Below, piece after piece: positions 26,281 through 45,496 of a stretch of 48,339 bases of DNA. This stretch comes from Candidatus Omnitrophota bacterium (GTDB lineage Bacteria; Omnitrophota; Gorgyraeia; Zapsychrales; Zapsychraceae), in assembly GCA_023247445.1 (NCBI GenBank), contig JAHFGL010000014.1, positions 1-48,339 on the forward strand, in the 5' to 3' direction. The notes under the pieces are model-generated. The model was given only the letters and a program-made list of their open reading frames with translations, was not told where the DNA came from and searched no databases. The position numbers and the translations under genes are program-made. Position 1 is the stretch's first letter. Each line of letters begins with the position of its first letter.

Positions 26281-28440
26281 TTACTTTAACTCATCTAATA
26301 ATTTTTTCAAGTCATTTAATTGCGTGACAGGCAATTTACAGACATGATTTTGACAAACATACGCTGTAGCACTGCCTGATATCGGAACTTGCGCTTTAAC
26401 AAAGGGACTGATCAAAATAACAGGATCTATTTTTGTTTTGTCTAGGGATGTATGCAGAATAAGAACCTTATTTGGGATAAAGCGATCATATATCAACTCA
26501 ACCATATTTTGTATGGTTGGATCTTCTTTCGTTCCAGCCAGCACAATTTCAGTTGATGGACCTAAAGCAAAGTCAAAAGCAATAAGCATTTGGGCATACG
26601 CACTGGGATGCTGGCCTACTTCGTTTGCAAAGAATTTAAAAAGTTGCTGCAAATTTGCTTCCCCTTCTTTTTCTAATGTAATGTGAAAAAGTCTTACCAA
26701 ATTTAAAGCGGCGATCGAATTGGCAGAAGGAATGGCGCCATCATAAATTTCTTTTTGTTTAAATAAAAGCTCTTCCCCATCATGAGCGGTCATATAAAAA
26801 CCACCGGAGTGTTTATCCCAAAAAAGCGCCGTCATCTTTTTAGTTAAATCTTGGGCTAACTGTAGATATTGAACATCAAAAGTAGCTTCGTAAAGATTAA
26901 GTAGGCCGTGCACAAAGAAAGCATAATCGTTGACGGTCGCGGGAATTGCTGATTCTCCATCACGATAACGATGCAATAACCGACCATCTTTTGTCATCAA
27001 CTTTTTAAGAATAAATTGTGTCGCTCTTGTGGCGGCTTCTTTATATTTTGGTTCGTGCAAAACACTAGATCCAAAAGCTAAACTTGCGATCATCAAGCCA
27101 TTCCAATCAACCAAAATTTTGTCATCAAGATGCGGCCGCGGTCGATATCCGCGCCGTTTAAACAACTTTTCCTTTGATTTCTGAATAATTGCATTAATTT
27201 CTTCAGGCGATTTCTTAAACTGCTCTGCCGTTTCTTCCAAGGTATGTTCCACATAGATAATATTCTTTGCTATAAATTCACCGTGAGGATCAACTTTGGC
27301 GTTGCCATTTTCTTTAATTCCAAAATGATAGTTAAAGACGGCTGAATCTTGGCCTAGCAAATCCTTGATTTCATCATATTTCCAAACATAGAAAGCCCCT
27401 TCTTTTTTCTCTAAATGCTTTTTTGCCTGGGGGTTGTCTTCCTTATATTCTTCCGGATCGAAACTATCCGCATCTTCCGCGCAATAGAAACCACCTTCGG
27501 GGAATTGCATATCACGCAAAACATAATCAAAGATTGCTCGAGCAATCTCTGCATAATATTCTTTTTTAGTGATCTGATAGGCTTCCAAATAAGTTGTCGC
27601 TAAAATCGCCTGGTCATAAAGCATTTTCTCAAAATGCGGGACTTGCCAATATTGATCAGTTGAATAACGGTGAAATCCGCCGCCAAGATGATCATACATC
27701 CCACCTTGTGCCATTTTTGTTAAAGTAAATTCTACCATTTCAAGTGCCTTGGAATCACTAAACCGTTTCCAATAACGTAATAGCAAAGATAAATTATGAC
27801 TCGTTGGAAATTTAGGTGAAGAACCGAATCCACCATACAGGCGATCATACATCTGCCCATATTCATCAAAAGCTCGTGTCAAAATATTTTTAGTTAATTG
27901 ATCCGCTTTCCCTTGTGACGACTCCTTTGACTGCAGAAGTTCTGTCAACGAAACGCTCGACTCAATAACTTTTGCTTGATTCGTCTGCCACATCTTATGA
28001 ATTGAATTCATAAGATCCACAAGTCCTGGCGATCCCCATTTGGCATATGGCGGGAAATACGTCCCCCCATAAAATGGTTTTTTATCCGCGGTTATAAAAG
28101 CGGTGAGCGGCCATCCACCTTGGCCCGTCATCGCGGTAACCGCAGACATATACACGTGATCAATATCAGGACGTTCCTCGCGATCAACTTTGATCGGAAT
28201 AAAATATTCATTAATAATTTTCGCAATAGTTGGATCTTCGAATGATTCGCGTTCCATCACATGACACCAATGGCAGGTGGAATAACCAATCGAAAGAAAA
28301 ATCGGTTTATTTTCTTTCTTGGCCTTGGCAAAGGCCTCTTCTCCCCACGGAAACCAGTCCACAGGATTATGGGCATGTTGCAAAAGATATGGGCTCTTTT
28401 CGTGAATCAGTCGATTATTAAAAGTCGCTTCTTTTGTCAT
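26281..28440 (-). CDS. DUF255 thioredoxin-domain protein (YyaL/SPATA20 family)
   Basis: The N-terminal thioredoxin-like domain has [16 protein letters not shown] and [19 protein letters not shown], with Cys56 and Cys59, then [16 protein letters not shown] long alpha/alpha six-hairpin region follows ([34 protein letters not shown]), as in cellulase or epimerase-like barrels. The 719-residue length is normal. The family is widespread; its biochemical role is not settled. No signal peptide is seen. It lies between the AsmA-like gene and the giant surface operon with gaps of about 50 bases, so it may be read with either. Confidence 0.95.
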
Positions 28441-28495: not shown

Positions 28496-28843
28496 TCACT
28501 TAATTTTTAAGGTTGCTTGACCGCGGCCTACGTTGCTGCAGATAGCTTCGACACGAATCGAATCACCGACCTTAGCGACCATTGGTACATCTTTTATAAA
28601 TTGCGATGGGGATGGTTGAGAGACTTCCCACAATACTATAGGTTTCTCGCTATTTTTGGTAATGATAACTCGTCGGATATAATGATCACGATTATTACTG
28701 GTTACATGCCGCATTTCAATATGTAACATTTGGGAGGTCTTATTATATTCTAATTTGATATCGGTTGGTGGCTTGGCCGAAACAAGGGGTGCTAATTGAA
28801 GAAAGAATCCACAAATAAGAATTCGAATAAGAATCTGACGCAT
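28496..28843 (-). CDS. Small secreted protein, desulfoferrodoxin-like beta domain (function unknown)
   Basis: A signal peptide (MRQILIRILICGFFLQ) is followed by about 90 residues beginning PPTDIKLEYNKTSQML. The segment RHVTSNNRDHYIRRVII resembles the HP..xHYIxWIE iron-ligand strand of superoxide reductase. GDSIRVEAICSNVG sits where the Cys-x-x-His ligand pair would be, but no histidine follows the cysteine. The iron site is therefore incomplete and enzyme activity is doubtful. This relation is my reading by eye. It begins one base after the giant coiled-coil gene stops and is likely the last gene of that operon, so it may be a periplasmic partner of it. Confidence 0.7.
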   Translation of the reverse strand: MRQILIRILICGFFLQLAPLVSAKPPTDIKLEYNKTSQMLHIEMRHVTSNNRDHYIRRVIITKNSEKPIVLWEVSQPSPSQFIKDVPMVAKVGDSIRVEAICSNVGRGQATLKIK

Positions 28844-28844
28844 T

Positions 28845-31800
28845 TTATAACCTCTGTTCGATTGAATCTAGAGCTGATCGAATCGCATCGCTACGATTTT
28901 TTGCCGCTGGGACAGGTTCACGAAGTGTTCTTGATTGGTCTTGATTATGACTCTTTTTCTCAATTTCTTCAAGATAACTTTGCGTCTTCAAATACGATGG
29001 TCGCATCTGATTAATTTCTAAGAATATTTTCCTGGCCTCTTCATTTAACCCTGTTTTATACAATTCAATAGCCTTTTTATATAACTGGGCTAAGTTTTCA
29101 TCAAACTCTTTACGGATTCTTTCACGTTCTTGTTTTAATTGTTCCTGTCGCTCTTTAACCAAACGTTCAATTTCTTTTTGTTTTTCCTTTTCCAGATTGT
29201 CTCTATCTTGATTCACCGACGCTTGTTTTGATATTTTCTTTTGAGGCGCTTCGGGGGTTTCTACCGTTGGTTCTTCGTTCGAAGAAGTTTCTTTGATCTT
29301 CTTTGCTTCAATAGCTTTTTCGCGATTTAGCTTAGCTTCCTCAATTTGTTTTTGGCGGGCTAAACTCTCTTCATCTTTTAACTTTTGTTTAGCAATGCGA
29401 TCATCTTCCTTTTTCTTCTCGGCAAACAAACGTTCCTCATCCATTCTAATCTTTTTCTCAAGTTGTTTTAATTCAAACTGCTTCTTATCTTCCTCTTGTT
29501 TTTTCTGACGAGATAATCCTTCTTCTCTTTTCTTGGCTATTTGCTGACGCATCTTTTCTTCTTTATCCATCTGACCTTCGATTGCTCCACGATCTTTCTG
29601 AAGCCTTGCCCTTACTTTACTAACATAATCGCTCGGCAACTGAGATTGAGTCGTTAATAAGCTCTCTAATTTATTAAACTTTTCCTTCGCTGACTCAGTA
29701 TTTTTATCCCTATATAATTCTAAGGCTTCTTGATAAACCTTTTCTACCTCATTACGCATTCTTTTAACTTCTTCCTCACGTCTGGCCTCTTCTTCCTTCG
29801 CTCGCGCTTGTTTAATGCGCTCTTCCTCTAGTTTTTGTTTTTTCACTTCTGCATCTTGCTTCTTCTGCTGCCCATCACGCTGTTTAAAAGCGCTGTCACT
29901 TTCTTGCTCTTTCTTCTGCTGATTTTCTGATATTTCTTGAAATGTCTCTTTGGTTAAGGCCTTGTCTTTCGCCGCAGCTTCTTTCTCTTCTTCTTTTGCT
30001 TGTTGGACAGCTTTTTTTGCGGCTTCTTCGGCTTTTTGAGCTTCATTCTTTTCTTGCAGTTTTTTATTCTTTGCATCTACAATCGCTTTTTGCTTCTCCT
30101 CTTCTTCTTTACGTTTGAGCTCTTTAAATTCTTCTTGTTGTTTACGAATTTTCTCTTGTTCTTCTTCCTTTATTTTCCTAGCTTCTTGTTCTTCTTTAAG
30201 AAGCCGATTTTTTTCTTCTAATTCGGCTAATTTTTTCTTCTGTTGCTGCGATTCAATCTCCTCACTAAGACGATTGCGCTCAATGGCCACTAAATAAGCT
30301 TTGGCTGACCCGTATCCTGGCGATAACCCCTCCACCATTGAAAACTTAGCTTTGGCCGCATTAAAACGTTTGTCACGATAAAGCGCGAGTGCTTCTTGAT
30401 AAATTCCCCCGACATCCTTACTCCACTTTTGGCCCTGTTGCTGCTTTTTTTGTCGAAGAGCTTGATCGATTCCTTTTTCTTCCCTTTTAAACTTCCGTTC
30501 TTGCGCTTTTCGTTCTTTAATTTTCTTCTTTTCCAATGCATCTAAATCTTTTTGGGCATGCTCGCGATCTATATCCGCCTTAGCTTTGCCATATTCATAT
30601 TGTCCTAATAATCTTTCTTGCGGAGAGAGATCTTCTTCTACTATATTTTCTATAGCTTTAACCACAGGTTTATTTTCCAACTGTTTTTTCTTATTTAAAC
30701 GCTCTTGCCTTTCTTCTTCTTTCTTCTGGACAAGTTCTTCTTCCTTACGATTACGTTCTTCTAATTCTTTTTGACGCTTTTCTTCTTGAGCTTTGAGCTC
30801 TTGTTCTTTCGCTATCTTAGCTTCTTCACGCAATCTAGTTTCTTCTTGTCGTTTTTCTTCTATACGTTTCTTTTCATCATCAACTTGCTGCGCAAGCATT
30901 TCAGTCCGCGCCTTATTAGCCAAAACTTCTTTTTGTAACTGATCTAATCTTTCATCTTCTTTTTCATGTTTCCTTTTAATCTGTTCTTTTTCTTGTAATT
31001 CTTTCTGCCTGGCTAATTCTTCTTGTTCTTTCGCGGCTTCTTCTTCCCGATGTTTTTTCTCTTCATCTAATTGTTTCTGTTTTGCCTGAGCAATTTTTCG
31101 TTCTTCTTCACTTTTCTTTGCCAACTCTTCTTCTTTCTGTTGACGAACGAGATCCTCTTGTCTTTGCTGCTCTTCTTTTCTGGCCAATTCTTCTTGTTGT
31201 TTCTTAAATTCTTTTTCCTGCGCTAACTTAGCTCTGGCATTTTTCTGTCTTTGCTCATCTGCCCTTCGACGATCCTGACGACCACGCGCCATAGCCGCCT
31301 CTTTATCATCGATACTCTGTCTAAACTCTTTATAACGTTCGCCTTCTAAATTCTTCAGCTGCTCTTCTTTCGCTTTTAAGAGAGCGACTTGTTCTTCTTC
31401 TTGAACTTGCCAGGCTGATTTTACTTTTTGATCCTTCTTTATTGAAGGCGGATGATAAATTGGCTCAACTTTTTTTGCCGGATGTTGTTTAGCAAGAATT
31501 CGATCAATGCGTTTTAAATATGATTCCACTGATTTATAACACGGGGTAATGTGATTAACTTCGGCAAACTTAGCTCGCGCCTCAACGAATCTGTTTTGCT
31601 TATATAATACGATCGCCTCATTGAAACTAGTTTCTGCCTCTTTACAAATGGGATTATCATATTCAATGTAAGGTCGGGCTTTATGTTCATGCCCAACCAT
31701 CGCTTTTTCTTCCTTTGTCGCTCGAGCAGAAACTAAAACACCTTGCTCCTGCGCCAGAGAAATATCCTCGTCAATATGGCCTAAATATTTAGATGTATCT

Positions 31801-34800
31801 TTATAATTAGGCAAAAAGGCTTCGACATTTATAAATCGCATCTTGGCTTCGATAAAATCTTTCGCCTTGTAAGCTTCTAGCGCACGCTTATATTGATTCT
31901 CAGTTGCCTCTAATAATCGTTTTTGTCTTTCTTCAATAGCCTTTTTAACAACCGCATCTTCATGATTTACTGGAGGTAATTCTTGAGGTTTTATAGTAAC
32001 GGGAGCAACTTCTTTCTGTTTACGAAGTTCTTGTTTAGGCAGCTTTTGTTTGGGTAGCTCTTGTTTGGCTATCCGCGCTAAGAAATCATCCGTTGATTTA
32101 TAATCGGGAACTAAAGCCTTTACCTCCTCGAACTTTTTCTTAGCTTCCTCAAACAATTTCTCCTTATATAAGCTGGTCGCATCCTGATAAATATTTTGTA
32201 CCCTTTCCCTTAATTCTTGCGCTTCTCGTTTATCCGCTATTTCTTTTTGTTTTTTAATTTGTTCCGCTGCATTCGCCTTTCTTCTCAACTCCTCCTGCGC
32301 CTGTTTTTCTTCTTGCGCTTTTTGTTTGGCGATTTGTTCTTCGGATTGCTTACGCGCTGATTTTTCTATTTCCTTTTGCTGGCGATATTCTCGGCTAAGG
32401 ACATCTTGACCATTCTCATCTAATTTATCTTGCTTAATTTCTTTTAAAAAGGCTTCTTGTTGCTTTTTAGCCAAATTTTGTTCATTGACTTCTAATTCCT
32501 TAGCGATTTTGGATAAATAATCATTAGTTATTTTATAATTTGGTGAAAGGGCATCAAGTTCTTTAAATTTATCATTAGCTTCTTTTAGTTCTTTCTTTTT
32601 ATAAAGATGCACCGCCTGTTCATATAAATCCTGATACTGTCGATTGAGACGTTCTTGTTTTTCTCGTTGGGCTGATTTTTGTTGCTGCGCTTTCTTTTCT
32701 TCTAGTTCGATCTGACGTTTCTTGGCGGCATCGCGTTCTTTCGCTAACTGTTCCACCTTTAACTTTTCAAGACGTTCTTTTTCTTCTTTTTGATTCGTTA
32801 ATCGCTCTTGTCCTTCGCGTTTAGAACGTTCCTTTCCTTCCGCTTCTTTCTTTATTCGCGCTTTTTCTTCTTCCTTAACTTTTGCTACTTTCTCTTGTTC
32901 TAATTTATAGGCTTGGGCTTTCTTTTCTTCTTCCGCACGTTGCTTTTGTAGCACGGCTTCTTTTTGACGCTCCTTAGCCAGGCGTTCTTCTTGCTCTTGT
33001 TTCTTTAGACGCTCTTTCTCTTCAATTTCTTTTTGCTTCTTAAGGCTAGCTTCTTCGGCTATTTTGGCTAAACGTTTTTCTTCTATTTTCTTTAGGCGCT
33101 CCTTCTCTTGAGCTTCCTTTTGTTTTTCAATACGTTGTTCTTCACGCTCTTTAGCCAATTTCTCAGCTTCTAATTTCTTCAAACGTTCACGTTCCTCATC
33201 TTCCTTCTTTTTTGCTAAAGCCTTTTGCTTCTCTTCTTCGACACGTTTTTTCTCTGCCTCAATATCAGCATCAACATGAGATAAGTAGGATGCCGTGGAT
33301 TTAAAATTAGGCATTGCCTTCTCCACTTTTTGGAACTTAACCTTCGCTTCCTCAAACTTCTTTTCTTTATACAACTTCAAGGCATCCTGATAAGAAGCCT
33401 CACTTTGCTTGACCAACTGCTCTTGCGCTTGCTTTTCTTCCATTTCTTTTTGGCGAACGGCTTCTTCTTGACGCTTCTGAATCGATTTTTGCTTTTCTTC
33501 CAACAAACGCTTTTCTTCAGTCGCAATATCAAGGTCAATGCGAGATAAATATTGCACTACTGATTTGTATCCAATATATTTTTGCTGAAGGTGTTCAAAC
33601 TTTACTTTTGCTTGTTTAAATTGTTGTTTGTTATATAGATCCACGGCTTCTCGATAAGAGCCCTCGGCTTCTGCCAAAAGTTTTTCCTGCTGCTGCTTTT
33701 CATCGAGTTCACGTTTTTTCTTATCGTCCTCTTCTTTCTTTTTCTGCACTAAACGCTCTTCTTCTTTTTTTCGCTCCATTACTTTCTTTGTTTCTTCTGC
33801 TAAACGTTTCTCTTCTTGCGCAACATCTTCTTCAATCTTCGCTAAATATTTAACCGTCGATTCATAGTTAGGATAAAGTTGTTGAACCTCGTCAAATTTT
33901 TCCTTAGCCTTGATAAAAAGTCGCTTATCATAAAGAGATACAGCTGATCGATAAATAAAATCTGCCTCTTCCTTTAATTTCTTTAATTTTTCTGCTGTCT
34001 CAAGTTCTTTTTGTTTTCTTAGTTTTTCGTCTTCTATTTTCTGAGCAGCCGTTCGCGCATCTTGTTCTTTTTTAAAGATTCTATCTTTCTCTTCATTCTT
34101 AATTTGTTCTTGATCTTTCACCGTCTTTTCAATATGACCCAAGTAAGTAGCTGTCTCTTTATAACTGGGGACCGTCCATTCGACTTCTTTAAATTTCTTT
34201 TGCGCTTCTTTATAAAGACCCAATTTGTAATAAGCGATCGCTTCTTGATAAACAGATTCTGCCTGTTCTTCTTGTTTTCGTTGACGTTCCTGTTCTTTAA
34301 GATCCAGCGCCGCTTTCCACTGGTCTTTTTCTTTTCGGCTAGCGACCGTTTCTTCTTTTAATTTCTCAGCAATAATATTTTTCTGTTCCCGTGCAACCTC
34401 TTGGTCAATAAGCATTAAATAGCTTCGTGTGGCTTTGTGATCAGGAAACATCTCATCAACCTTCTCAAATTCTTCTTTGGCCGACAAATATTTCTTCTGT
34501 TTAAACAATGAAACAGCCACTTGATATGATTTTTCAACATCACCAGCGCTATATCCACGTTCGACTTCGAGCCGTCGTATTTTTCTTTCTTCTTCACGTT
34601 TAAAAGCATCGTCTTGTTTCTTGCCCTTCTTTACATTTTCACTAATATAATCTTTCATCTCTGGATTTTCAGTAATCTCAATAGCCTTTTTCCATAACGC
34701 TTGGGCTTCTTCAAATTTGCCTTCCTCCATAAGACGCACGGCTTTCTCATAATATTCACGCGCCTTTTCTTCACGTTGTTGATTGCGTCGCAACTTCGCC

Positions 34801-35063
34801 TGATCTTTTAATTTATCATCAACCGTTTCGATTTTCTTTTTGGATTCTTTGATAAGATCACGTAAGTTAAGAACATAACCTTCTTCGGTTTGTTTTTCAC
34901 GAATGGAAGGTGGTATATTCTCCGTGGAGGGTTGAGCAAAAACAGGGGCAACACCCAAGATGGAAATAATGAGAATTGTAGAGAGTCGCGTAAAGTGGGG
35001 GTTATATTTCATTAATACTAAAAAGTATTTATATATAGGATTTCTGTATTTTTGTTGGTTCAT
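28845..35063 (-). CDS. Giant secreted coiled-coil protein with 13 TPR-like modules
   Basis: The 2072-residue protein has a hydrophobic export segment (TILIISILGVAPVFAQ, about residues 28-43). The rest alternates Lys/Glu/Gln-rich helix with modules of about 50 residues of the form YxxAvxLYkxkkFeeAkxkF, xvexxxPxYksTxxYLxxI. I count 13 modules, centred near 34720, 34530, 34220, 33930, 33620, 33380, 32600, 32160, 31860, 31580, 30370, 29700 and 29050. The modules are TPR-like helix pairs; the coils between the later ones reach about 260-400 residues. The ATG overlaps the barrel gene stop by 4 bases; an internal ATG at 35012 would give a cleaner signal peptide. Likely a long periplasmic scaffold or tether. 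No named family is recognised. Confidence 0.85.
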   Translation of the reverse strand: MNQQKYRNPIYKYFLVLMKYNPHFTRLSTILIISILGVAPVFAQPSTENIPPSIREKQTEEGYVLNLRDLIKESKKKIETVDDKLKDQAKLRRNQQREEKAREYYEKAVRLMEEGKFEEAQALWKKAIEITENPEMKDYISENVKKGKKQDDAFKREEERKIRRLEVERGYSAGDVEKSYQVAVSLFKQKKYLSAKEEFEKVDEMFPDHKATRSYLMLIDQEVAREQKNIIAEKLKEETVASRKEKDQWKAALDLKEQERQRKQEEQAESVYQEAIAYYKLGLYKEAQKKFKEVEWTVPSYKETATYLGHIEKTVKDQEQIKNEEKDRIFKKEQDARTAAQKIEDEKLRKQKELETAEKLKKLKEEADFIYRSAVSLYDKRLFIKAKEKFDEVQQLYPNYESTVKYLAKIEEDVAQEEKRLAEETKKVMERKKEEERLVQKKKEEDDKKKRELDEKQQQEKLLAEAEGSYREAVDLYNKQQFKQAKVKFEHLQQKYIGYKSVVQYLSRIDLDIATEEKRLLEEKQKSIQKRQEEAVRQKEMEEKQAQEQLVKQSEASYQDALKLYKEKKFEEAKVKFQKVEKAMPNFKSTASYLSHVDADIEAEKKRVEEEKQKALAKKKEDEERERLKKLEAEKLAKEREEQRIEKQKEAQEKERLKKIEEKRLAKIAEEASLKKQKEIEEKERLKKQEQEERLAKERQKEAVLQKQRAEEEKKAQAYKLEQEKVAKVKEEEKARIKKEAEGKERSKREGQERLTNQKEEKERLEKLKVEQLAKERDAAKKRQIELEEKKAQQQKSAQREKQERLNRQYQDLYEQAVHLYKKKELKEANDKFKELDALSPNYKITNDYLSKIAKELEVNEQNLAKKQQEAFLKEIKQDKLDENGQDVLSREYRQQKEIEKSARKQSEEQIAKQKAQEEKQAQEELRRKANAAEQIKKQKEIADKREAQELRERVQNIYQDATSLYKEKLFEEAKKKFEEVKALVPDYKSTDDFLARIAKQELPKQKLPKQELRKQKEVAPVTIKPQELPPVNHEDAVVKKAIEERQKRLLEATENQYKRALEAYKAKDFIEAKMRFINVEAFLPNYKDTSKYLGHIDEDISLAQEQGVLVSARATKEEKAMVGHEHKARPYIEYDNPICKEAETSFNEAIVLYKQNRFVEARAKFAEVNHITPCYKSVESYLKRIDRILAKQHPAKKVEPIYHPPSIKKDQKVKSAWQVQEEEQVALLKAKEEQLKNLEGERYKEFRQSIDDKEAAMARGRQDRRRADEQRQKNARAKLAQEKEFKKQQEELARKEEQQRQEDLVRQQKEEELAKKSEEERKIAQAKQKQLDEEKKHREEEAAKEQEELARQKELQEKEQIKRKHEKEDERLDQLQKEVLANKARTEMLAQQVDDEKKRIEEKRQEETRLREEAKIAKEQELKAQEEKRQKELEERNRKEEELVQKKEEERQERLNKKKQLENKPVVKAIENIVEEDLSPQERLLGQYEYGKAKADIDREHAQKDLDALEKKKIKERKAQERKFKREEKGIDQALRQKKQQQGQKWSKDVGGIYQEALALYRDKRFNAAKAKFSMVEGLSPGYGSAKAYLVAIERNRLSEEIESQQQKKKLAELEEKNRLLKEEQEARKIKEEEQEKIRKQQEEFKELKRKEEEEKQKAIVDAKNKKLQEKNEAQKAEEAAKKAVQQAKEEEKEAAAKDKALTKETFQEISENQQKKEQESDSAFKQRDGQQKKQDAEVKKQKLEEERIKQARAKEEEARREEEVKRMRNEVEKVYQEALELYRDKNTESAKEKFNKLESLLTTQSQLPSDYVSKVRARLQKDRGAIEGQMDKEEKMRQQIAKKREEGLSRQKKQEEDKKQFELKQLEKKIRMDEERLFAEKKKEDDRIAKQKLKDEESLARQKQIEEAKLNREKAIEAKKIKETSSNEEPTVETPEAPQKKISKQASVNQDRDNLEKEKQKEIERLVKERQEQLKQERERIRKEFDENLAQLYKKAIELYKTGLNEEARKIFLEINQMRPSYLKTQSYLEEIEKKSHNQDQSRTLREPVPAAKNRSDAIRSALDSIEQRL

Positions 35064-38000
35064 TCTAACATACCAAAATGTAGTTCTTCTAGAATTTTCT
35101 CTAAAATTTTCTTCGCTTTTTCATACTGACCATTCTTGATATATTGATCGGCCATCGTCTTCATATCTTTCAAATTCTTTTCTGTGTTGATACGGCCGCG
35201 AATATATTCTGAGGCTTCATCAAGCATCATTTGTCCCGCTACCAAAATATCTTTATAGATCTGTCTTGACTCTTCCAGATCACCGCGCTCATTAGCCTTC
35301 TTAGCCAGGAAGAAATATTGATTTAATTCTTGTAAGACAGCACTATTTTCATGCGAAATCTCATCTTGGATAATGGCCCAGGCCCAATGATTAATTTTTT
35401 CTTCCAACCATTTTGCTTTGGCGCGTTCAATTTCTTCCGGCGTCTGATCATAAAATTTACCCGTCAAGCGGACAAATGGTCCTTGCGCGGTGTACGACAA
35501 TGCGGTTAAATCATCGTTAAAGTCGGTAAAGTTGTACCCAACGCCTAATTGCGCATGTTCGCCCAATCGTCGTGCAGCCTCAATCAAGAATCCACGTTTA
35601 CTATCTTTAGCTTCCTCTTGCGTTAAGATACGGAATTCTCCGCCGACTAACCAATCATTGTTGATCTTATAATTAAGACGATGAATCATCAGCCATGTAT
35701 GAGTTTGTGTAAAGTCAAAGCCGGTGACTTTTTCCTGCGTTGTACGATAGGCATACTTCTCCGCCAACTGCCATTTCTCGTCAATATCATAAATCGCTTC
35801 TCCCGCTAAGACCTGTGTAATTTCTTTTTCAATGTCAGCGCTGTCGATCTGACCATTAGGACCTTTGTTTTCCAAATAGGTGTAGCGAGCTAAAAGATTT
35901 AGGCGATCAAATTCGATCGGTCGATAAGCACCGCCAATCATCATCTCCTTATACGCCGCCTCAACGGTGCTCGTTGTTGTATTGACAGTGTTAGAAAATT
36001 CTAACTTGTTAAAGATCGTTAATTCTGGCGTTACCTTTCCTTCGGTGGCATTGGAGAAGACAAGTTGACGATGGTTTTGGTCACTGCTATCTAAACGAAT
36101 TTCCAATTTTGTTGAGCTCTTTAAAATCTGCTCGCCGGTCTCGGCATCCTTATTGACATATCCGATGGCAACCGATAACGCATTACGTGTGGTCGTGGTC
36201 GCATTTAAGTTTTGTACCTCACCGCGTGTAAGCGCCCCGCTTAAAGCCCATTTATCATTAATATCGCCCGTTAATCCAAATATGTTGGAGCGACTGATCT
36301 CTTGAGGATCTTGTGTATATTGTCGACTTAAAGATCCCTCGAGCTTGTGACCATCTTTCTCGCGAATCAAACTATAGGTACTGTCGGTTAATTGCTTGCC
36401 CTTATTTAAACCAAAGGTGCGTGTCGATGCCATTTCTAATTCATCACTCAAACGTTTCTTTGTGCCAAAGGTGTACGTGACATCTTTTCCATCAACGGAT
36501 GAATTAGTTACCGCAACCCTACTTTCGTTTTGTGTATCTTTATCAACCTGTGAAGTTCCGCCAAAGGCAAAGGTTGTTGATTTATTTGTTGGCGACATTT
36601 CTGAAACGCCCATTGAGGTTTGAATGCTGGTTTGATCATCCACTTTCGCGGAGGCGCCCACGGATGTGATGCTGCCAACTTGCCCGGCATTATCTCTGGT
36701 CACGGATTGTTCAGCACTGAGCGTTAAATCTTTGTTCATATTAGCTTCTACGCCGAGCGTCGTTGCCGTGCCGGATTGACCAATCGTCTCTTGGGCCTTG
36801 ATCGTTAAGTTCTCATCGGGTTTAGCAGTCAGGCCAAAGGTTGTTTGATCATTATTAGCGCCTTTTAATGTCTTCTGTTGAGCTAAGGAGATCGTCAATT
36901 TATCGCTGAGCTTGTAATCGGCACGTAGCGCCATCAAGTCTTCTTCTTTATTGGTCTCTGAATTGAATTGATCTTTCTTGTCGCTGACTTCTTGCTTACG
37001 ATATTCACCCGTTAAGGTCAAATCTCTTAACTGATGAACAATCTGCATTAATGTCGTTGCTGTTTTGGTGGCTCCAACTTGCGCCTGAGTTTGCAAATTA
37101 CCATTATCAAGAAGTGTCTGGACATCATAACGAACGGTCGCTCTAGTATCTTTGGTGACATCAAATGTCAATCCAAGACCTTTTAATTCTTTACCTTGCT
37201 GCGCGGTTGTTGAGCCAGTTGAGAAATCATTATCGATCCATTTGTAATACGCGGATGTTCCAAGTCGATTAAATAAGCTGGCATCGCCTTTGATACCATA
37301 GGCGCGACCTTGGGCATTATTGGCTGTCGACAACTGACTAAATGTCAAACCGCCGTCGGTTGAAACATATGTTCCTAAGGCCTCCGCGCTTGACTCGGCA
37401 TATTCGGTTGTGATTGTCGCAGGTCCCAGACGCAGCGTCAGATCCGTTCCCATTAATTCATAATTTTGGGAGGCCTGGCCTTCTCTGACAAATGTGCCGC
37501 CGACAATAACATTATTCGTAAGCGCTTGTTTAACACGGCCGCCAGTACTGCCTTCTTCCACTTCATCTCTGACATCATATTCGTAGTCGACAACCACATA
37601 CACGAGATTACCTCTTAAAAGTTCACTGGAGGTAATCGCATAAGACTCAACGATAAATGGTACTGGCCTCCAGAAGGTCATACGGCCATTAGCATTATCC
37701 ATTTCATAATCGGCGTTGAGTTTCATATCGCGCGATGAAATAACAAGGCCAGTGATTCGATCGCGAACCTCAATGCGGACCTTATCAGATCCTTCAATGA
37801 CATCTTTGTTCTTTAGATAGTACAACGAACCACCCGTGGCTAAGAATTCATTATGCGCCGACCGTTGTTTAGATCTGGCATTAAAGACAATCACTCTCGT
37901 GCGCGGATCGCCATACTGGGTCGTAGCGACACTTTGATAATCAATCTTGCCACCATAGAGTGTTCGTGAGAACTGCGCGAACTCGGTGTCAGTAAAGCTA

Positions 38001-41000
38001 ATGGCATAATTACCCCAGATCGCCGAGGATTTATCCCATTCAAGAAGCAGATACAAGTTGCCCTGGGTGTCGGTCGCTTGATAATTCTTTTGCGAGGCAT
38101 CGCCATAAACAGGATAGTATTGATCCGGATCGAGACTCTTAAATAATTCTTTGCGTTCGCGATCACTATCAAAACTTGATGTGATTAAATATTTTCCAAG
38201 GACCTTTCCTTTTAAGTAATAGGCGAACTTACCTTCGGTCCAGAATCCATTTTTGAATTTATCATCTTGCTGAACTGGTTCAATGTTTCCAGTATTAAAG
38301 GTGTAACCCGCTTTGGCATCACCCATCGCCACAAAGAACATGTAATCTTCACCGACGCGCACAGCCTTAACGTATTGTTGAACAGGAATGCTTACCCCTT
38401 GATCGTTCTCGAGAGATTTTTCGGTTAGAACGCCAGGAAGCGGTACAACGGACGCATGTTCGGCGTCAGCTAAATTATCTTTACCTTTGACAGTTTCTTG
38501 GATGACGAAATCGTAATCGCCCTTGGGCAAGATAACATCAAGCGTGACCTGCTCGCTTGCACCGATAGAATCATTTCCTTCGATTAATTCTCTCGGCGTT
38601 AACCCACGTTTTTCAACAATTGGAATTTCCGTGAACAGTTCTCCTGCCTTCATAATGCGGATGCTTTGTAAGTTCGCATTCAAACGATCCACCTTAATGG
38701 TTTCTCCACTGACGAGAATATTTTGAACGCTCAGACTATTTTCTTTACTTTGCGCAATCAACCATTTGAGGTGATCGTCTTGTTTGAGCTTTTGATCGGC
38801 GAAATATTTTGCGAGCTCTTCGTCATCTTTGATGGTTCTAAAGTTGATCGACTTTGGTTTGGTTTCATCATACTTGCCATCTTTACTCTCAACGTAAGCA
38901 ACATAGGCATATTGACGATCAAGATGAATCGGTTCACCTTTATTATCAATGCCGTCCCAGAGAATTGGATCAGAAATATTTAAACGATCACCTTGGAAGG
39001 TGCGCACGACCGCCTTGGTATCGGTGTCGATGATATCCAATTTCCAATATTCAACAAACGCCGTGTAGTTATTGAAGATTCTAAATTCAGGTTTCTGCGC
39101 AAAGATATCATTGTGAACGATGATTTCATCGCCGAACAAGCTGACATTCATGCGCGGCGTTGGCCTATCCTTATCATGAGAAATATTTACTTTCTCGGTG
39201 AAGAACCTTTGATCAACATTTTTGAATCGATCATAATCCATGTTGACGCCGAAGTTAACCTTAGAGAGAGATCCTGGCGTAATATCCACAACCACCACTT
39301 TATCCGTCGTCAAATAACTTCCTTCCGGCAAGGTGGATTCATCAACTCTAAATAAATGTCGTCCCGGAATTAAGCCTGGAATATTAAAGAGTCCATTTTT
39401 GTCAGTTTGAATAACGGTGCCATCTTCCATGACGATACGGACGTTCGGCACTGGATTTTCTTTGATCGTGTCGCGATCCAAATAAACATATTCAGGCGCG
39501 TCTTGACGTCCATTTTCATTAAGATCAAAGAAGACTTTACCCAAGACCGAGCCTAAATCAAAGGTTGGATCAAGAACAACCTTAACAACCGCACTGGCAT
39601 TGTTCGACAATCGTTGGCCAGTTAAATATGTGGCGACGGCGGTGTTTTCATAACTTCCAACGGTTACACCCGCACCGATGACTAATTGATATTTGAGAAC
39701 CTTTGTTGCCCCAGCGGCGACGGTTCCAATGTTAAACTTAACCGGTCGATTTCCAATTGGATTACCAATTGGAACGTTATCTAAAATCACACGGCCTTCT
39801 ACGAATTTAAATCCTGGCGGAATGTTATCTTCAAGATAAACGCTAGCCACACTCGTTGTACTTCGATTTTCAATCGTGACGGTATAGGTGACCACATCAC
39901 CAATTCGGGCTTCCTTCTTATTAGCATCTTTGGTAATACGTAAGATCTGTGCGTCGGAATCCATGGGGTGATCAATTTCTAAGATAATGCCAGCAACAGT
40001 TATCGTTTCTCCCTTGGAACCTGTTGTAACCGTACGTCCTGCCGGGAAGCTTGTCTCAACCGATGGATAACTATAATTACCCGCGGTTACCGTCATATAA
40101 TAATTTCCGTCGGCAGCGATGAAGCTATAGAATCCGTCGGCGCCGGTGACCACAGGATTGACATCCGCCGCATCCAAATCAACGCCGGGAACAGCCGCGA
40201 CACCCGTTGCCGCTCGATAGAAAGTAACCGTCGCGTTTTCAATCGGATTGCCCGACACAGAATCAAAGACAACCCCAAACGGATCGGTCAATCTAACGGC
40301 TAAAATATTACTTGCTACCCCATCAACAGTCACAGAAAGATACGTAACCCCCTTGGTCAAGGCCGTTGTCAAATCAATCGAATAATTTCCAGAAGCATTC
40401 GTCGTCCCTGATCCGACAGTTTGTAGAAGAAGATTACCGCTGGCATCATTAGCAACAATCGTCACCGTCGAGTTGGCTAACCCACGTCCAATAATCGTTG
40501 GCGTTGGATCGCTGATTCTTTCATTAACCGCTGGAGAGGTAATCGTTGGAACATCATCGGTTGATGGACTGGCACTGACGGTGACCGCAACCGACGAACC
40601 TGGCGCTCCGCCGACATACGGTGTTAATGAATTTGCACCCACGGACATGGCGACGGTGGCCTCCACACGCCAATTACCATTAGCATCAGCGGTTGCTGTA
40701 GCGACGGTATTGCCGCCAATATCTTTAATCGTCACAACCGACCCAGCATCGGCTGTACCAATAATTGTTGGTAAAGTATCTATGGTTTGATTGCCGGTGG
40801 CTGGAACATTGATCGCCACATTAAGGAAGATCCATTGTGGAGTTGCGGCGGCATCCGCATTATCGTTACCGCCTCCATTGGTACAGTTGATACAAGTAAT
40901 ATCGTTGTTGACCCCCGTAACTTCGGAATCACTGACGCTGGCATAAAGAATGCTTTGAGCTCCGTTGGGGAATGCAATATTCCAATCACCGGCGGCAGCG

Positions 41001-43780
41001 GTTTTAGATAATGTAATCTTGCTCGCGCTGGTTCCGGTGATGGTAAATGTATTATTGATCGTTTGTGTTGTTGCTGTTGTAAATTGAATTGTCTTGCCGG
41101 CGGTCGTTGAAGTCAAATTATAGAATGTTGTATCCCCGGAGATCGTTGCTGTCGCCGCTGTATCAAGCGTTACCGTTCCGGATGAATGTGTAAATGTTCC
41201 GCCGGTATGAGCAAAGTTACCTGCCACGGTAAAGCTCTTAGCCGTTGTTGGTGCTGTCAGAGTTCCACTAGTAATCGAAACGCTGCTATTGGCATCAATG
41301 TTACCGTTGGTCGCCGTGAGTACAGCGGTTGCGCCACCGACTGTTAATGTGCCAGTCGTCGTTAACGTATTGGTATTGGTTGAAATATCAAGAACACCAG
41401 CGCTAATGGTTGTATTTCCAGAAGCAGCCAAACTCGCGGTTGTTCTAAAGATATCCGCACCATTAGTGTCATTAAATGTTAAATGGTAATATGTCGCGAA
41501 TAATTTTCCGCTATAGGTGTCTTGCACACCATCATTGTCACCAACATACTCAAAGGTTCCCGAGTCGGTGTCTTGGGTTAACGAAATCGTTTCATCACCA
41601 CGGGCGCGGATGGTTCCAGTATTGTTATTAAACGCCGTATCAACGGTTAAGTTCTTTCCATTAAGTGTGACAATGGCCCCCGAGGCAACAGTTAAATTTT
41701 CAACTTGAACGTTGGTCGCTAAGATTGGGTCGTTGGCGACATCAGGAATGATCGCGGTATCTTCATCCAGAGGCACAATACCCAGATCCCAATTTGTGGC
41801 TGTATCCCAATTCGTTGGTGTTGTGCCGTCATCACCTTGCCAAGTCATTGTGGCCGCGCCAAATGACCAGTTGGTTGTTGAGCTGGCTGGACTTTCCGTT
41901 GAGCTTCGCGCGACAATCGTTAGACCTCCGGTTGCATCATTATCGCGGACGGTTACATACTTAACAGACTGAGTAGCGCCGGCAGTTAAGACTAAACTTC
42001 CCTTTGTTCCAGCCGATGTGCTGTTAATAGACATATTATTTCCCGAAGTTCCCTGGAGTATTAATGAACCACCAGCAGCAATGGTTTGTGTATTGCCCGC
42101 CCCAACGGTAAAGGTCAATGTTCCATTCGCTGTCACTTTGTATAAACCATAGAATGTTGTGGTACCCGACAAGGTCTGACTGGTTCCATCTAAGGTGACC
42201 GTACCACTGGAATGCGTAAAGGTTCCACCTGAATGCGCAAAGTTTCCAGCGACGGTGAAACTCTTAGTAGCGTTTGGAGCGGTGAAGACTCCATTACTAA
42301 TTGATACAGCGCCATTGGCATCAATGTTTCCGGTCGTCGCCGTCAAGACACCATTGGCTCCATTGACAGAAAGTGTTCCCGTTGTTGTTAATGTATTGCC
42401 ATTGGTAGATATATCCAACGTACCGTTGGTAACCGTTAATGCACCCGCAACCGCAATATTACCGTTGCTTCTAAAGATATCGGCACCGTTGGTATCATTA
42501 AAGGTGAGGTTGAAATAGGCCGCTAGCAATTTACCGGTATAAGTATCCTGAGCCCCATCGTTATCCCCTTGATAGTTAAATGTACCGACGGTTGTATCAT
42601 GAGTTGTGATCGCAACGGTTTCAGATCCAACCAAATTAATGGTACCGTTATTGGTCAGCGTATCGGTAATGGTGAAATTCTTACCCGCTAACGTTAAGGT
42701 TGCTGCGCTACCGATCGTCAAGTTCCCGACGGAAATACCAGCCCCGGCAATGGCGGCAAGGGTTGGATAGGCAGGCGCTCCGTTTGGAATAATAACAATA
42801 TCACCCGCCGTTGGAACGACCCCCACATCCCAGTTTGTTGCGGTATCCCAATTCGTTGGTGTTGTACCATCATCACCCTGCCAAGTAATCGTTGGCGTTC
42901 CAAAATTCCAATTAATCGTTGTTCCGGCGAATAGTTCAGAAGAATGCCGGGCAATCATCGTTAAGCCACCCGAGGCATCATTATTGGCAACCGAAAGATA
43001 ATCTAAATCCTGAACACCACCCGCGTTTAATGTTAACTTACCTTTTGTGCCTCCTGCGCCGGGAACCGTACTTTCAATCGTTAAAATATTTCCAGCGGCG
43101 CCTTTTAATGTCAACGAATGCGTAACCGTCTGAGTGTTCACCTGCTCAAAGGTTAGCTGCTGGGCGGAGCTAACAGTTTTCTGTAAATTATAAAATGTCG
43201 TTGTCCCTAAAATACTGTTACTACCCGTACCCAGATCAACAGTATTATTGCCATGGGTAAAGGTCGCGGTATTATTCCAATTGCCACTGACTGTCATTGT
43301 TAGAGCATTGGCATTAAATATTCCAGCGGAATTGACAAAATTATTACTAATCTCAATGGCATTCGTCAGTAACCGCACTGTTCCAGCACCAGAATGAGTT
43401 AACTTATAAAATAATTTACCAGCGCCCGTTCCTCCTGAGGTTAAATCTTGGGTTACCCCTACACCCGCGATAAAATTAACCAATCCCGTTCCTGGTGTAA
43501 ATGTTCCCGAGTTGACCCAACTTCCCGTTGTAGTAATCGTTCCCGTCGATGTTTGCAATGTTCCAGCGTTGGTGATATTCCCAGGAACATTAAGTGTACC
43601 GGCATTGACATTAAGTTTTGATCCAGCAGGAACCGTCACGCCTTGAGCGTAGGCTGATGATTGACTTAATAAGATAAAAATTAAAAACGCTAAGCCTATA
43701 ACCCCTATATATAGAGAAGAGGCAAGGCTCCGCATCCATTGCCAAATATTCATTTTTAATTTTTTATCTTCTATGTTCAT
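35060..43780 (-). CDS. Giant outer-membrane surface protein: beta-solenoid, Ig-like, DUF11, beta-barrel, helical tail
   Basis: The ATG at 43780 gives 2906 residues (a TTG precedes it). A signal peptide ends near YAQ (about residue 46). Up to about residue 985 come Thr/Asn/Gly-rich beta-solenoid repeats with a 347-residue period. Two Ig-like units follow (about 990-1160, each with PTIIG), then a carboxypeptidase-regulatory-like unit (VVFDSVSGNPIENATV, about 1170). Next are a DUF11-type domain (ITKDANKKEARIGDVVTYTV, about 1275) and an SdrD-B-like domain (GKVFFDLNENGRQDAPEYV, about 1410). A segment with ILWDGIDNKGEP follows (about 1610). From about 1830 to 2770 many amphipathic strands (after DPDQYYPVYGD) suggest an outer-membrane barrel. 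The last about 125 residues are helical and TPR-like. Role: adhesion or surface layer (inference). Confidence 0.85.
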   Translation of the reverse strand: MNIEDKKLKMNIWQWMRSLASSLYIGVIGLAFLIFILLSQSSAYAQGVTVPAGSKLNVNAGTLNVPGNITNAGTLQTSTGTITTTGSWVNSGTFTPGTGLVNFIAGVGVTQDLTSGGTGAGKLFYKLTHSGAGTVRLLTNAIEISNNFVNSAGIFNANALTMTVSGNWNNTATFTHGNNTVDLGTGSNSILGTTTFYNLQKTVSSAQQLTFEQVNTQTVTHSLTLKGAAGNILTIESTVPGAGGTKGKLTLNAGGVQDLDYLSVANNDASGGLTMIARHSSELFAGTTINWNFGTPTITWQGDDGTTPTNWDTATNWDVGVVPTAGDIVIIPNGAPAYPTLAAIAGAGISVGNLTIGSAATLTLAGKNFTITDTLTNNGTINLVGSETVAITTHDTTVGTFNYQGDNDGAQDTYTGKLLAAYFNLTFNDTNGADIFRSNGNIAVAGALTVTNGTLDISTNGNTLTTTGTLSVNGANGVLTATTGNIDANGAVSISNGVFTAPNATKSFTVAGNFAHSGGTFTHSSGTVTLDGTSQTLSGTTTFYGLYKVTANGTLTFTVGAGNTQTIAAGGSLILQGTSGNNMSINSTSAGTKGSLVLTAGATQSVKYVTVRDNDATGGLTIVARSSTESPASSTTNWSFGAATMTWQGDDGTTPTNWDTATNWDLGIVPLDEDTAIIPDVANDPILATNVQVENLTVASGAIVTLNGKNLTVDTAFNNNTGTIRARGDETISLTQDTDSGTFEYVGDNDGVQDTYSGKLFATYYHLTFNDTNGADIFRTTASLAASGNTTISAGVLDISTNTNTLTTTGTLTVGGATAVLTATNGNIDANSSVSITSGTLTAPTTAKSFTVAGNFAHTGGTFTHSSGTVTLDTAATATISGDTTFYNLTSTTAGKTIQFTTATTQTINNTFTITGTSASKITLSKTAAAGDWNIAFPNGAQSILYASVSDSEVTGVNNDITCINCTNGGGNDNADAAATPQWIFLNVAINVPATGNQTIDTLPTIIGTADAGSVVTIKDIGGNTVATATADANGNWRVEATVAMSVGANSLTPYVGGAPGSSVAVTVSASPSTDDVPTITSPAVNERISDPTPTIIGRGLANSTVTIVANDASGNLLLQTVGSGTTNASGNYSIDLTTALTKGVTYLSVTVDGVASNILAVRLTDPFGVVFDSVSGNPIENATVTFYRAATGVAAVPGVDLDAADVNPVVTGADGFYSFIAADGNYYMTVTAGNYSYPSVETSFPAGRTVTTGSKGETITVAGIILEIDHPMDSDAQILRITKDANKKEARIGDVVTYTVTIENRSTTSVASVYLEDNIPPGFKFVEGRVILDNVPIGNPIGNRPVKFNIGTVAAGATKVLKYQLVIGAGVTVGSYENTAVATYLTGQRLSNNASAVVKVVLDPTFDLGSVLGKVFFDLNENGRQDAPEYVYLDRDTIKENPVPNVRIVMEDGTVIQTDKNGLFNIPGLIPGRHLFRVDESTLPEGSYLTTDKVVVVDITPGSLSKVNFGVNMDYDRFKNVDQRFFTEKVNISHDKDRPTPRMNVSLFGDEIIVHNDIFAQKPEFRIFNNYTAFVEYWKLDIIDTDTKAVVRTFQGDRLNISDPILWDGIDNKGEPIHLDRQYAYVAYVESKDGKYDETKPKSINFRTIKDDEELAKYFADQKLKQDDHLKWLIAQSKENSLSVQNILVSGETIKVDRLNANLQSIRIMKAGELFTEIPIVEKRGLTPRELIEGNDSIGASEQVTLDVILPKGDYDFVIQETVKGKDNLADAEHASVVPLPGVLTEKSLENDQGVSIPVQQYVKAVRVGEDYMFFVAMGDAKAGYTFNTGNIEPVQQDDKFKNGFWTEGKFAYYLKGKVLGKYLITSSFDSDRERKELFKSLDPDQYYPVYGDASQKNYQATDTQGNLYLLLEWDKSSAIWGNYAISFTDTEFAQFSRTLYGGKIDYQSVATTQYGDPRTRVIVFNARSKQRSAHNEFLATGGSLYYLKNKDVIEGSDKVRIEVRDRITGLVISSRDMKLNADYEMDNANGRMTFWRPVPFIVESYAITSSELLRGNLVYVVVDYEYDVRDEVEEGSTGGRVKQALTNNVIVGGTFVREGQASQNYELMGTDLTLRLGPATITTEYAESSAEALGTYVSTDGGLTFSQLSTANNAQGRAYGIKGDASLFNRLGTSAYYKWIDNDFSTGSTTAQQGKELKGLGLTFDVTKDTRATVRYDVQTLLDNGNLQTQAQVGATKTATTLMQIVHQLRDLTLTGEYRKQEVSDKKDQFNSETNKEEDLMALRADYKLSDKLTISLAQQKTLKGANNDQTTFGLTAKPDENLTIKAQETIGQSGTATTLGVEANMNKDLTLSAEQSVTRDNAGQVGSITSVGASAKVDDQTSIQTSMGVSEMSPTNKSTTFAFGGTSQVDKDTQNESRVAVTNSSVDGKDVTYTFGTKKRLSDELEMASTRTFGLNKGKQLTDSTYSLIREKDGHKLEGSLSRQYTQDPQEISRSNIFGLTGDINDKWALSGALTRGEVQNLNATTTTRNALSVAIGYVNKDAETGEQILKSSTKLEIRLDSSDQNHRQLVFSNATEGKVTPELTIFNKLEFSNTVNTTTSTVEAAYKEMMIGGAYRPIEFDRLNLLARYTYLENKGPNGQIDSADIEKEITQVLAGEAIYDIDEKWQLAEKYAYRTTQEKVTGFDFTQTHTWLMIHRLNYKINNDWLVGGEFRILTQEEAKDSKRGFLIEAARRLGEHAQLGVGYNFTDFNDDLTALSYTAQGPFVRLTGKFYDQTPEEIERAKAKWLEEKINHWAWAIIQDEISHENSAVLQELNQYFFLAKKANERGDLEESRQIYKDILVAGQMMLDEASEYIRGRINTEKNLKDMKTMADQYIKNGQYEKAKKILEKILEELHFGMLE
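40850..43320 (-). repeat. Internal tandem duplication (1041-base period) in the giant surface gene
   Basis: The sequence GTATCCCAATTCGTTGGTGT occurs at 41802 and 42843, exactly 1041 bases (347 codons) apart. The surrounding protein repeats too, with GDDGTTPTNWDTATNWD in both copies. The unit has an A half (starting at GDDGTT) and a B half (starting near AGNFAH). The order along the protein is B-A-B-A-B, the outer B copies being more diverged. This is recent in-frame expansion of a beta-solenoid. Confidence 0.85.
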
Positions 43781-43804
43781 CAACTTTTAATCTATCCCTA
43801 AGCT

Positions 43805-44602
43805 CTATCTACTCAGCTCCTTCTCAATAACCGCCTTAAGCGCATCGACGTCTCGTTCTTCTATTCTTTTACCATTGATAAAATACGTTGGCGTTCCGGT
43901 CATCCCAACCCGCTGAAACTCCGCCTTATCTTCAGCGATGTAACTGTTCCAGAGAGTGTCCTTCTCTTTAAAATCCTTTTTAAATTTCTTTACATCTAAA
44001 CCAATCTGCTTCGCCAGTTCGTAAAACTTATCTTCATTAAGCTCAGCGTGATGAATAAACAATGCTTCTACCATTTCCCAATATTTGCCTTGCTCTGCCG
44101 CCGCGAAACAGGCCTTGGCCGCCCCTGGAGCAAAAGGATGTGATGGCAATGGATAATGCTTGATCAAATATTGAACTTTATCTTTATACGGCTCGATCGC
44201 TTTCATTAGTCGCGGATGAAACTTTGCACAAAACGGACATTGAAAATCAACAAACTCAACAATTTTTACTGCAGCGTCTTTGCTGCCCTGAAATGGATCA
44301 TGGCCAATGGCAATGTCATATATAGATGACGGTGAATTGGGATTCGCCGTACTTACTTTGGTCAATTCATTTTTGATTCGATCCAGATTATCGGCGAACT
44401 TAACAATTTTTTCCCGTGACTCTTTGAGTTCTTCAGTAAGCTTGGCTTTATCGGCCAGGGAAAGCGCAATGATCCTTTTTTGCTGGTCAATGGTCTTCTG
44501 CATGGCATCATTCATTTCAAATAATTTAAAACCCATGATCAATAACCCACCCAACTCAATAATGGCGATTAACGAAAAAACTAAAAACATTTTTTTATTC
44601 AT
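43805..44602 (-). CDS. Membrane-anchored DsbA/thioredoxin-like protein
   Basis: From the ATG at 44602 (GGGAG upstream; the longer frame from 44653 is rejected) the 265-residue protein starts with a membrane anchor (KMFLVFSLIAIIELGGLLIM). A coiled coil of about 70 residues follows, then a DsbA-like domain. The active site is FVDFQCPFCAKF (Cys122, Cys125), and the cis-proline loop is GTPTYFINGKR. It resembles BdbD/DsbA-type periplasmic thiol oxidases or disulfide chaperones. It lies 24 bases before the giant surface gene and is first in that operon, so it may help fold or export the surface complex. The giant protein itself is cysteine-poor, so its true client is unclear. Confidence 0.92.
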   Translation of the reverse strand: MNKKMFLVFSLIAIIELGGLLIMGFKLFEMNDAMQKTIDQQKRIIALSLADKAKLTEELKESREKIVKFADNLDRIKNELTKVSTANPNSPSSIYDIAIGHDPFQGSKDAAVKIVEFVDFQCPFCAKFHPRLMKAIEPYKDKVQYLIKHYPLPSHPFAPGAAKACFAAAEQGKYWEMVEALFIHHAELNEDKFYELAKQIGLDVKKFKKDFKEKDTLWNSYIAEDKAEFQRVGMTGTPTYFINGKRIEERDVDALKAVIEKELSR

Positions 44603-44673: not shown

Positions 44674-44698
44674 CCCTACACCCTAACCCCTAATTCCC
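44674..44698 (-). repeat. Telomere-like C-rich repeat; canonical G-quadruplex motif on minus strand
   Basis: Four C tracts (44674-76, 44681-83, 44687-90, 44696-98) are separated by 4, 3 and 5 bases. On the minus strand this is GGG-N5-GGGG-N3-GGG-N4-GGG, a canonical quadruplex motif. It lies between the dsbA-like gene and the toxin-antitoxin promoter. A matching element sits at 45497-45520. Confidence 0.75.
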
Positions 44699-44702
44699 TT
44701 AC

Positions 44703-44731
44703 TTGCCGAATTTCCGAAAGTATGATATATT
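44703..44731 (+). promoter_or_regulatory. Promoter with inverted repeat for the toxin-antitoxin pair
   Basis: TTGCCG (44703-44708) and TATATT (44726-44731) are spaced by 17 bases. TTGCC (44703-44707) and GGCAA (44734-44738) form an inverted repeat framing the promoter, a likely operator for the AbrB-like antitoxin. Confidence 0.6.
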
Positions 44732-44753
44732 TTGGCAAATAGGAGGAACAAAA

Positions 44754-45014
44754 ATGACCATTACCATGACGACCAAAAACCAAATCACGCTGCCTAAAAA
44801 AATCGTTGACGCACTGCATCTTCACCAAGGCTCCCTCTTTGATGTCAAAGTCTCCAAAAATCGCATTGAACTGATTCCACTTAAAGTCGAAGAAAATCCG
44901 TTTACTGATGAAGATTACAAAAGGCTTGAAAAGCTTTATCAAAAAGAAAAGCATACGGCTAAAAAGGTCACCAAAGAATATATTGACAGTCTTGGAAAGA
45001 AAGAAAAATCGTAA
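44754..45014 (+). CDS. AbrB/MazE-like antitoxin
   Basis: The 86-residue protein begins MTITMTTKNQITLPKKIVDA, the swapped-hairpin DNA-binding fold of AbrB/SpoVT antitoxins. This is followed by SLFDVKVSKNRIELIPL. The C-terminal Lys-rich helix (YKRLEKLYQKEKHTAKKVTK) would bind the toxin. The ATG at 44754 has a perfect AGGAGG; the longer frame from 44703 is rejected since it would start inside the promoter. The stop is directly followed by the toxin ATG (TAAATG). Confidence 0.92.
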   Translation: MTITMTTKNQITLPKKIVDALHLHQGSLFDVKVSKNRIELIPLKVEENPFTDEDYKRLEKLYQKEKHTAKKVTKEYIDSLGKKEKS

Positions 45015-45320: not shown

Positions 45321-45377
45321 TCCTCGGACAATACACTTTAATAAATTTCTAATCATTTCGATTAATTTCAATTGTTT

Positions 45378-45443: not shown

Positions 45444-45496
45444 AAAGTTCATAATTAATTTTCTATCTTCCATCTCCTACCTCTCTATCCTCTAAT

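Follow-up and report, generated by a model that had tools for sequence, protein, structure and literature searches.

The window analysed in this study, a stretch of 48,339 nucleotides that is one entire contig (JAHFGL010000014.1) from the 2.29-Mb metagenome-assembled genome GCA_023247445.1 of a Candidatus Omnitrophota bacterium, carries two adjoining giant genes on its minus strand. The first encodes an outer-membrane protein with a predicted beta-barrel followed by a helical tail resembling tetratricopeptide repeats (TPR), and the second encodes a rod protein with a short helical motif near its N-terminus. Tailed barrel and motif rod together are the conserved unit of this locus, and they probably exemplify a portable connector with two parts, which Omnitrophota barrels would use for tethering or scaffolding in the periplasm. 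The two genes adjoin each other across genomes, tail and motif occur together, the same pair is found on the unrelated TpsB barrels, and natural fusions join both parts in cis. Docking between the helical tail and the product of the next gene, as proposed in the initial annotation, is strongly supported by these observations, but a contact with the TPR modules as such was not borne out, as the predicted contact is a short helical motif before the first TPR module of the rod. The features of both proteins are given below; residues of the giant protein are numbered according to the 2907-aa reading from the preceding TTG at 43783.

35060..43780, minus strand: giant outer-membrane protein, 2906 aa from ATG 43780, with homologues and Pfam matches to DUF11 and Big_6
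40829..43642, minus strand: beta-solenoid-like N-terminal region, residues about 48-985, recognised by eye, with weak Bactofilin and Amnionless matches
39590..39943, minus strand: DUF11 domain, residues 1281-1398 (Pfam 5.5e-12; NCBIfam B_ant_repeat)
35447..38377, minus strand: conserved, predicted beta-barrel domain, residues about 1803-2779 (tailless homologues, AlphaFold2, Foldseek)
35447-35482, minus strand: barrel-ending beta-signal GPFVRLTGKFYD, where tailless homologues terminate
35063..35446, minus strand: TPR-like tail of 128 aa, residues 2780-2907, very probably periplasmic (homologue comparison, AlphaFold2, same tail on TpsB barrels)
28845..35063, minus strand: rod protein (TPR/coil), 2072 aa, with 12 TPR-type units and E/K/Q/R-rich linkers behind a Sec-type signal peptide and the docking motif
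34806..34886, minus strand: N-terminal docking motif EEGYVLNLRDLIKESKKKIETVDDKLK, rod residues 60-86, with profile matches almost confined to partners of tailed barrels
28848..28898, minus strand: C-terminal short motif NRSDAIRSALDSIEQRL of the rod, common to long rods, including rods without barrel

Homologues of the giant protein (about 40-60% identity) were found in 23 of 55 related genomes and homologues of the rod in nearly the same genomes, which excludes a chance origin of the giant open reading frame (ORF). Its C-terminal 1391 residues have homologues in these 23 relatives and in 105 of 384 Omnitrophota genomes, and the barrel domain occurs outside the phylum as well (Gammaproteobacteria, Deltaproteobacteria and others). 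Barrels of the tailed Omnitrophota type were also seen in records labelled Clostridia, Thermodesulfovibrionia and Auribacterota (L128, L136 and L127), either by mis-binning or by transfer. The wider homologues terminate exactly at the beta-signal (..GPFVRLTGKF), and the window protein and its kin mostly run 123-138 residues further, the tail (residues 2780-2907) following directly after GPFVRLTGKFYD. An AlphaFold2 model of barrel and tail, built with 54 homologues, gave a many-stranded barrel-type fold and then four helices, with a predicted local distance difference test (pLDDT) score of 74 and a predicted template modelling score (pTM) of 0.66; the tail helices had a block pLDDT of mostly 77-88, and the middle of the barrel was poorly modelled. 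The best Foldseek matches of this model were the outer-membrane barrels LptD, SlpA, BtuB and PapC, at low TM-scores, and the PDB sequence search for the barrel returned nothing significant. A beta-barrel is the supported prediction for the C-terminal domain, because its C-terminus is homologous to tailless barrels ending in the beta-signal and the best PDB matches of the model are outer-membrane barrels. In the topology of such barrels, the segment after the last strand is periplasmic.

A surface-protein domain is present in the giant protein, as DUF11 (PF01345) reached 46.5 bits at a curated cut-off of 24.6. The barrel has no ShlB or POTRA match in Pfam and is not of the TpsB/FhaC type. Its order of passenger and then barrel is similar to that of classical autotransporters; however, no Autotransporter domain was found in Pfam, and the barrel domain, with about 975 aa and many more than 12 strands, is not that of a type Va autotransporter.

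The rod protein contains 12 TPR-type units (PF07719, 40.8 bits at a curated cut-off of 27), which alternate with E/K/Q/R-rich linkers (3% G+P); overall, 52% of its residues are E, K, R or Q. The docking motif is helical, comprises about 25 aa with the consensus GY..NLK.LI..S...I..V...I and lies at the mature N-terminus of the secreted product of the next gene. The mature start of the window rod, GYVLNLRDLIKESKKKIETVDDKLK, is conserved among homologues behind tailed barrels, and its hidden Markov model (HMM) E-value of 4e-26 is that of a training member of the motif HMM. Within the strict HMM set, the complete partners of giant barrels ranged from 173 to 2272 aa, with 0 to 19 TPR units; all partners taken together ranged from 84 to 2272 aa, the docking motif alone being constant. 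The smallest partner, 84 aa behind a tailed TpsB (L204:7746-8000, minus strand), comprises little beyond a signal peptide and the docking motif and is probably a minimal plug. TPR/ER rods in barrel-less genomes of the same family do not possess the motif. The contact is predicted to involve the motif and not the TPR modules as such, because rods without tailed barrel lack it (with the exception of genome G042) and because the smallest partner is reduced to signal peptide and motif. At the other end, the motif R...[IV]...LD.[FVI]E was found on long rods with or without docking motif, and 31 of the 32 matches of this expression among 1651 ORFs (duplicates included) were rods, so the sequence suggests a second attachment point of long rods.

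The pairing of tail and motif was examined with the strict motif HMM at 102 distinct barrel loci with room downstream. A motif protein followed 40 of the 47 tailed giant barrels and none of the 55 tailless ones. Of the seven tailed exceptions, five do have a partner that is either diverged or fused in cis: diverged partners are present in L073 and L086 (E-values of 4e-9 and 2e-8), the barrel polypeptide itself carries rod-type TPR repeats in L123 and L133, and in L069, a single-contig genome without a partner gene, the motif is fused to the end of the barrel's own tail. This last fusion was missed by the strict HMM and was found with a shorter motif HMM (independent E-value of 0.001 among 10,106 ORFs). 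In L068 the next protein (119 aa) has a similar, statistically weak motif, and in L076 the gene is decayed, frameshifted and partly deleted; as a candidate tail-rod fusion, L076 was kept as weak only. Homologues of the two giant genes lying mostly apart had been named at the outset as an outcome that would speak against docking, and across genomes the opposite was found: among the 55 relatives, 23 have the barrel, 23 the motif rod and 22 both (the window's own genome counted). A tree of 93 barrels placed the tail almost within a single clade (38 of 39 rows tailed); L128 within this clade has neither tail nor partner. The tailless giant barrels of other classes (L088-L105) have a different conserved neighbourhood: behind most of them lie a lipoprotein-like gene of small size (127-170 aa) and one resembling uvrA.

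A search of the phylum with the motif revealed rods in families without a good giant barrel, where the preceding gene encodes a TpsB/FhaC transporter of roughly 700 aa. In eleven such loci the same tail (HMM E-values of 1e-25 to 1e-33) directly follows the barrel and is succeeded by a motif rod. Four of these eleven tailed TpsBs were tested in Pfam and matched ShlB (3e-27 to 5e-31), POTRA_2 and Omp85; the relatives of the tail thus sit on genuine Omnitrophota TpsB barrels, although the window barrel is not a TpsB. At four further tailed TpsB loci, detected by the tail census, the motif partners are diverged (5e-8 to 7e-4), and one of these partners is just 84 aa long; the total is thus 15 TpsB loci with tail and motif partner. 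None of 20 tailless TpsBs sampled from the phylum had an adjoining motif protein (one weak match was to TPR only). The bodies of giant barrels and TpsBs share no HMM similarity, and their profile alignment matches mainly the tail start. As the topology of TpsB independently fixes the side of the membrane, the tail is placed in the periplasm. In the 384 Omnitrophota genomes, the tail was found in 56, the motif in 55 and both in 48, compared to 8 expected (uncorrected for ancestry). The explanation of the pairing as a mere order-wide gene order was weakened by families f8, f15 and f17, in which the same pair is found on TpsB.

The natural fusion of L069 was used for a structure model of tail and motif on one chain, with an alignment that combined rows of full tails with rows of separate motif peptides. 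AlphaFold2 yielded a pLDDT of 90.4 and a pTM of 0.77, and the motif formed a helix at residues 112-129 (block pLDDT 92-94) behind a weaker linker. Foldseek gave no significant PDB match for this model. The confident fold of this fusion counts in favour of the predicted direct binding of motif and tail.

In the mechanism that we propose, the barrel polypeptide would run past the beta-signal into the periplasmic TPR-like tail, and the next gene would give rise to a Sec-exported protein whose mature N-terminal helical plug docks on this tail. Behind the plug would come a rod whose length varies widely and which in the window has 12 TPR units on charged helical linkers. By coupling barrel and rod, the plug would allow the rod to scaffold or anchor the barrel, and thereby the surface beta-solenoid adhesin, inside the envelope. 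The tail is very likely a socket for the motif as plug, and the periplasmic location and direct docking of both are strongly indicated; the tether or scaffold role of the rod we only infer, and it is the likeliest role of the long rods.

Several points weigh against this proposal. The tail arose about once on the giant-barrel tree, so that only 2-3 independent contrasts are available, all of them concordant, and as many of the adjacent pairs are due to common descent, the adjacency counts are weaker than they look. The evidence not affected by this objection comes mainly from the portability to TpsB and from the cis fusions. Motif rods without tailed barrel occur in G042 and G163, tail and rod lie on different contigs in G081, and a diverged tail has no adjacent partner in G106. 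Moreover, the roughly 1500 linker residues, if they formed straight helices, would extend over approximately 200 nm, far beyond the width of the periplasm; a simple radial strut is therefore impossible, and the rod must either lie along the envelope or be folded back. At the other extreme, partners of 84-150 aa cannot be long tethers. A more far-reaching version, which we put forward tentatively and regard as doubtful, is a new class of envelope organiser, in which different secretion-type barrels of the phylum share the socket and are gathered laterally by rods that bear the plug and are adjustable in length; the resulting periplasmic scaffold could span much of the ultra-small Omnitrophota cell.

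The main rival to a connector is a periplasmic secretion accessory or chaperone, which on the tail would guide, or keep unfolded, a large beta-solenoid exoprotein crossing the barrel (for the giant barrel its own passenger, for TpsB a separate TpsA); this is rather unlikely. Both tailed barrel families plausibly export beta-solenoid surface proteins, as judged from family membership for TpsB and from the N-terminal region for the giant barrel, and TPR proteins are often co-chaperones. However, most TpsBs of the phylum are tailless and presumably functional without tail, the 84-aa partner offers only signal peptide and motif, and no chaperone domain was found in Pfam.

Four minus-strand genes with gaps of 24, -4 and 1 bases had been noted, and their positions, sizes and gaps agree with the ORF coordinates; the -4 gap between the genes of the giant outer-membrane protein and the rod is an ATGA overlap. 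The co-directional run extends past these four genes into two more:

43805..44602, minus strand: membrane-anchored DsbA-type thiol oxidoreductase (Pfam Thioredoxin_4 3e-28), a local neighbour outside the conserved unit; ATG 44602, stop 43805, 265 aa from the ATG or 282 aa from the upstream GTG 44653
28496..28843, minus strand: small secreted protein, 115 aa, optional, with homologues adjoining the rod in L038, L055 and L067; unmatched in Pfam and NCBIfam and without a significant hit in a PDB sequence search
26281..28440, minus strand: DUF255/thioredoxin-fold protein (Pfam 7e-78), a frequent downstream neighbour
24308..26230, minus strand: AsmA-family protein (Pfam AsmA 1e-31), a downstream neighbour of long rods outside the core pair

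A trans-envelope bridge, in which tail, rod and the downstream inner-membrane AsmA-family protein form a path between the membranes, e.g. for lipid or outer-membrane maintenance, is improbable. Within the order, 30 of 31 informative loci have an AsmA-family gene behind the long rod, whether or not a barrel is present, and the common C-terminal motif of the long rods could bind an inner-membrane partner. On the other hand, this gene is absent near the short rods in tailed-barrel loci of other families, gene order kept within one bacterial order may be mere inheritance, and AsmA proteins operate elsewhere without such rods. AsmA as a third core member was dropped, since it is missing near short rods.

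That tail and rod are merely co-inherited neighbours without contact would require few independent events on the giant-barrel tree, but it is very unlikely given that tail and motif recur together on an unrelated barrel family, that cis fusions exist, that the motif is absent from rods without tailed barrel and that genomes with both parts are in excess.

The initial proposal of one system of four genes, in which DsbA would oxidise the giant pair and the small protein would assist it, did not hold and is hardly credible. In its favour are the tight spacing in the window genome and a C-x-x-C at residues 964/967 of the giant protein (40883-40894, at the end of the beta-solenoid region), which recurs in homologues of the same family and is a possible client of the adjacent DsbA. 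The DsbA family is, however, present in 54 of 55 relatives and next to the barrel only in the window genome (1 of 28 informative loci), and in 7 of 28 loci (L034, L036, L037, L042, L044, L045 and L046) that position, -32 to +49 nt upstream of the giant barrel and on the same strand, is taken by a REP-associated Y1 transposase gene, which is an odd operon partner of a giant barrel. The gene of the small secreted protein is rare among the loci and was also seen next to barrel-less rods. A promoter scan gave matches near the shuffle expectation.

Upstream of the DsbA gene, a MazE-type antitoxin (Pfam 5e-7) and, without a gap after it, a 101-aa protein that has no Pfam match and is probably the toxin occupy 44751-45320 on the plus strand, and the overlapping 265-aa ORF at 44676-45473 on the minus strand is therefore probably spurious and not a gene. 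A 930-aa open frame near the contig end (45520-48312, minus strand) resembles phage tail-fibre families (PHROG 9942, 7e-37).

Other outer-membrane barrels are known to work with periplasmic TPR proteins, namely BamA with BamD and GltA/GltB with GltC. In the present case the TPR-like helices are part of the barrel protein, as its tail, and a short helical motif is what the partner contributes; moreover, Pfam yielded only generic TPR_2 for the rod, no lipobox was seen by eye, and the Pfam and PDB scans gave no sequence match to BamD/GltC-type families. TPR helices next to an outer-membrane barrel are also known from PgaA, BcsC and AlgK/AlgE, but in these systems the TPRs, which are N-terminal or belong to a lipoprotein, function in the export of polysaccharides, whereas the tail described here is C-terminal and sits on barrels that carry or export proteins. 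The functionally closest known systems are the outer-membrane tethers OmpM of diderm Firmicutes and SlpA of Deinococcus, for which this role has been proposed or shown, and in which SLH domain, coiled coil and barrel are on one polypeptide with an N-terminal periplasmic part (PMC10628300, PMC9388160). As in these tethers, a helical, coiled-coil-type connector would link the barrel of the window through the periplasm to the cell body; unlike in them, the periplasmic part of the barrel protein is a C-terminal TPR-like tail and the rod is a separate protein. Neither rod nor giant protein has an SLH domain at E<=0.1 in Pfam, and no other peptidoglycan-binding domain was found in them.

In line with the view that no named system has this layout, tail, plug and rod match no Pfam, NCBIfam or PDB family beyond generic TPR, and a literature search among open-access papers gave no account of the tail/rod pair. 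The giant ORFs of Omnitrophota have been described as large, poorly annotated proteins and proposed adhesins (PMC10066038), and a term search within the text of that paper found no description of the pair. The tail-and-plug pair looks like an undescribed, reusable connector, which bears on the broader question of how the outer membrane is attached to the rest of the envelope beyond the textbook phyla. With socket and plug on two unrelated barrel families and with short boundaries (128-aa tail, motif of about 25 aa), docking is testable with small soluble fragments. For the giant unannotated genes of Omnitrophota, the connector provides a concrete function to seek, and the motif HMM a marker for further sockets.

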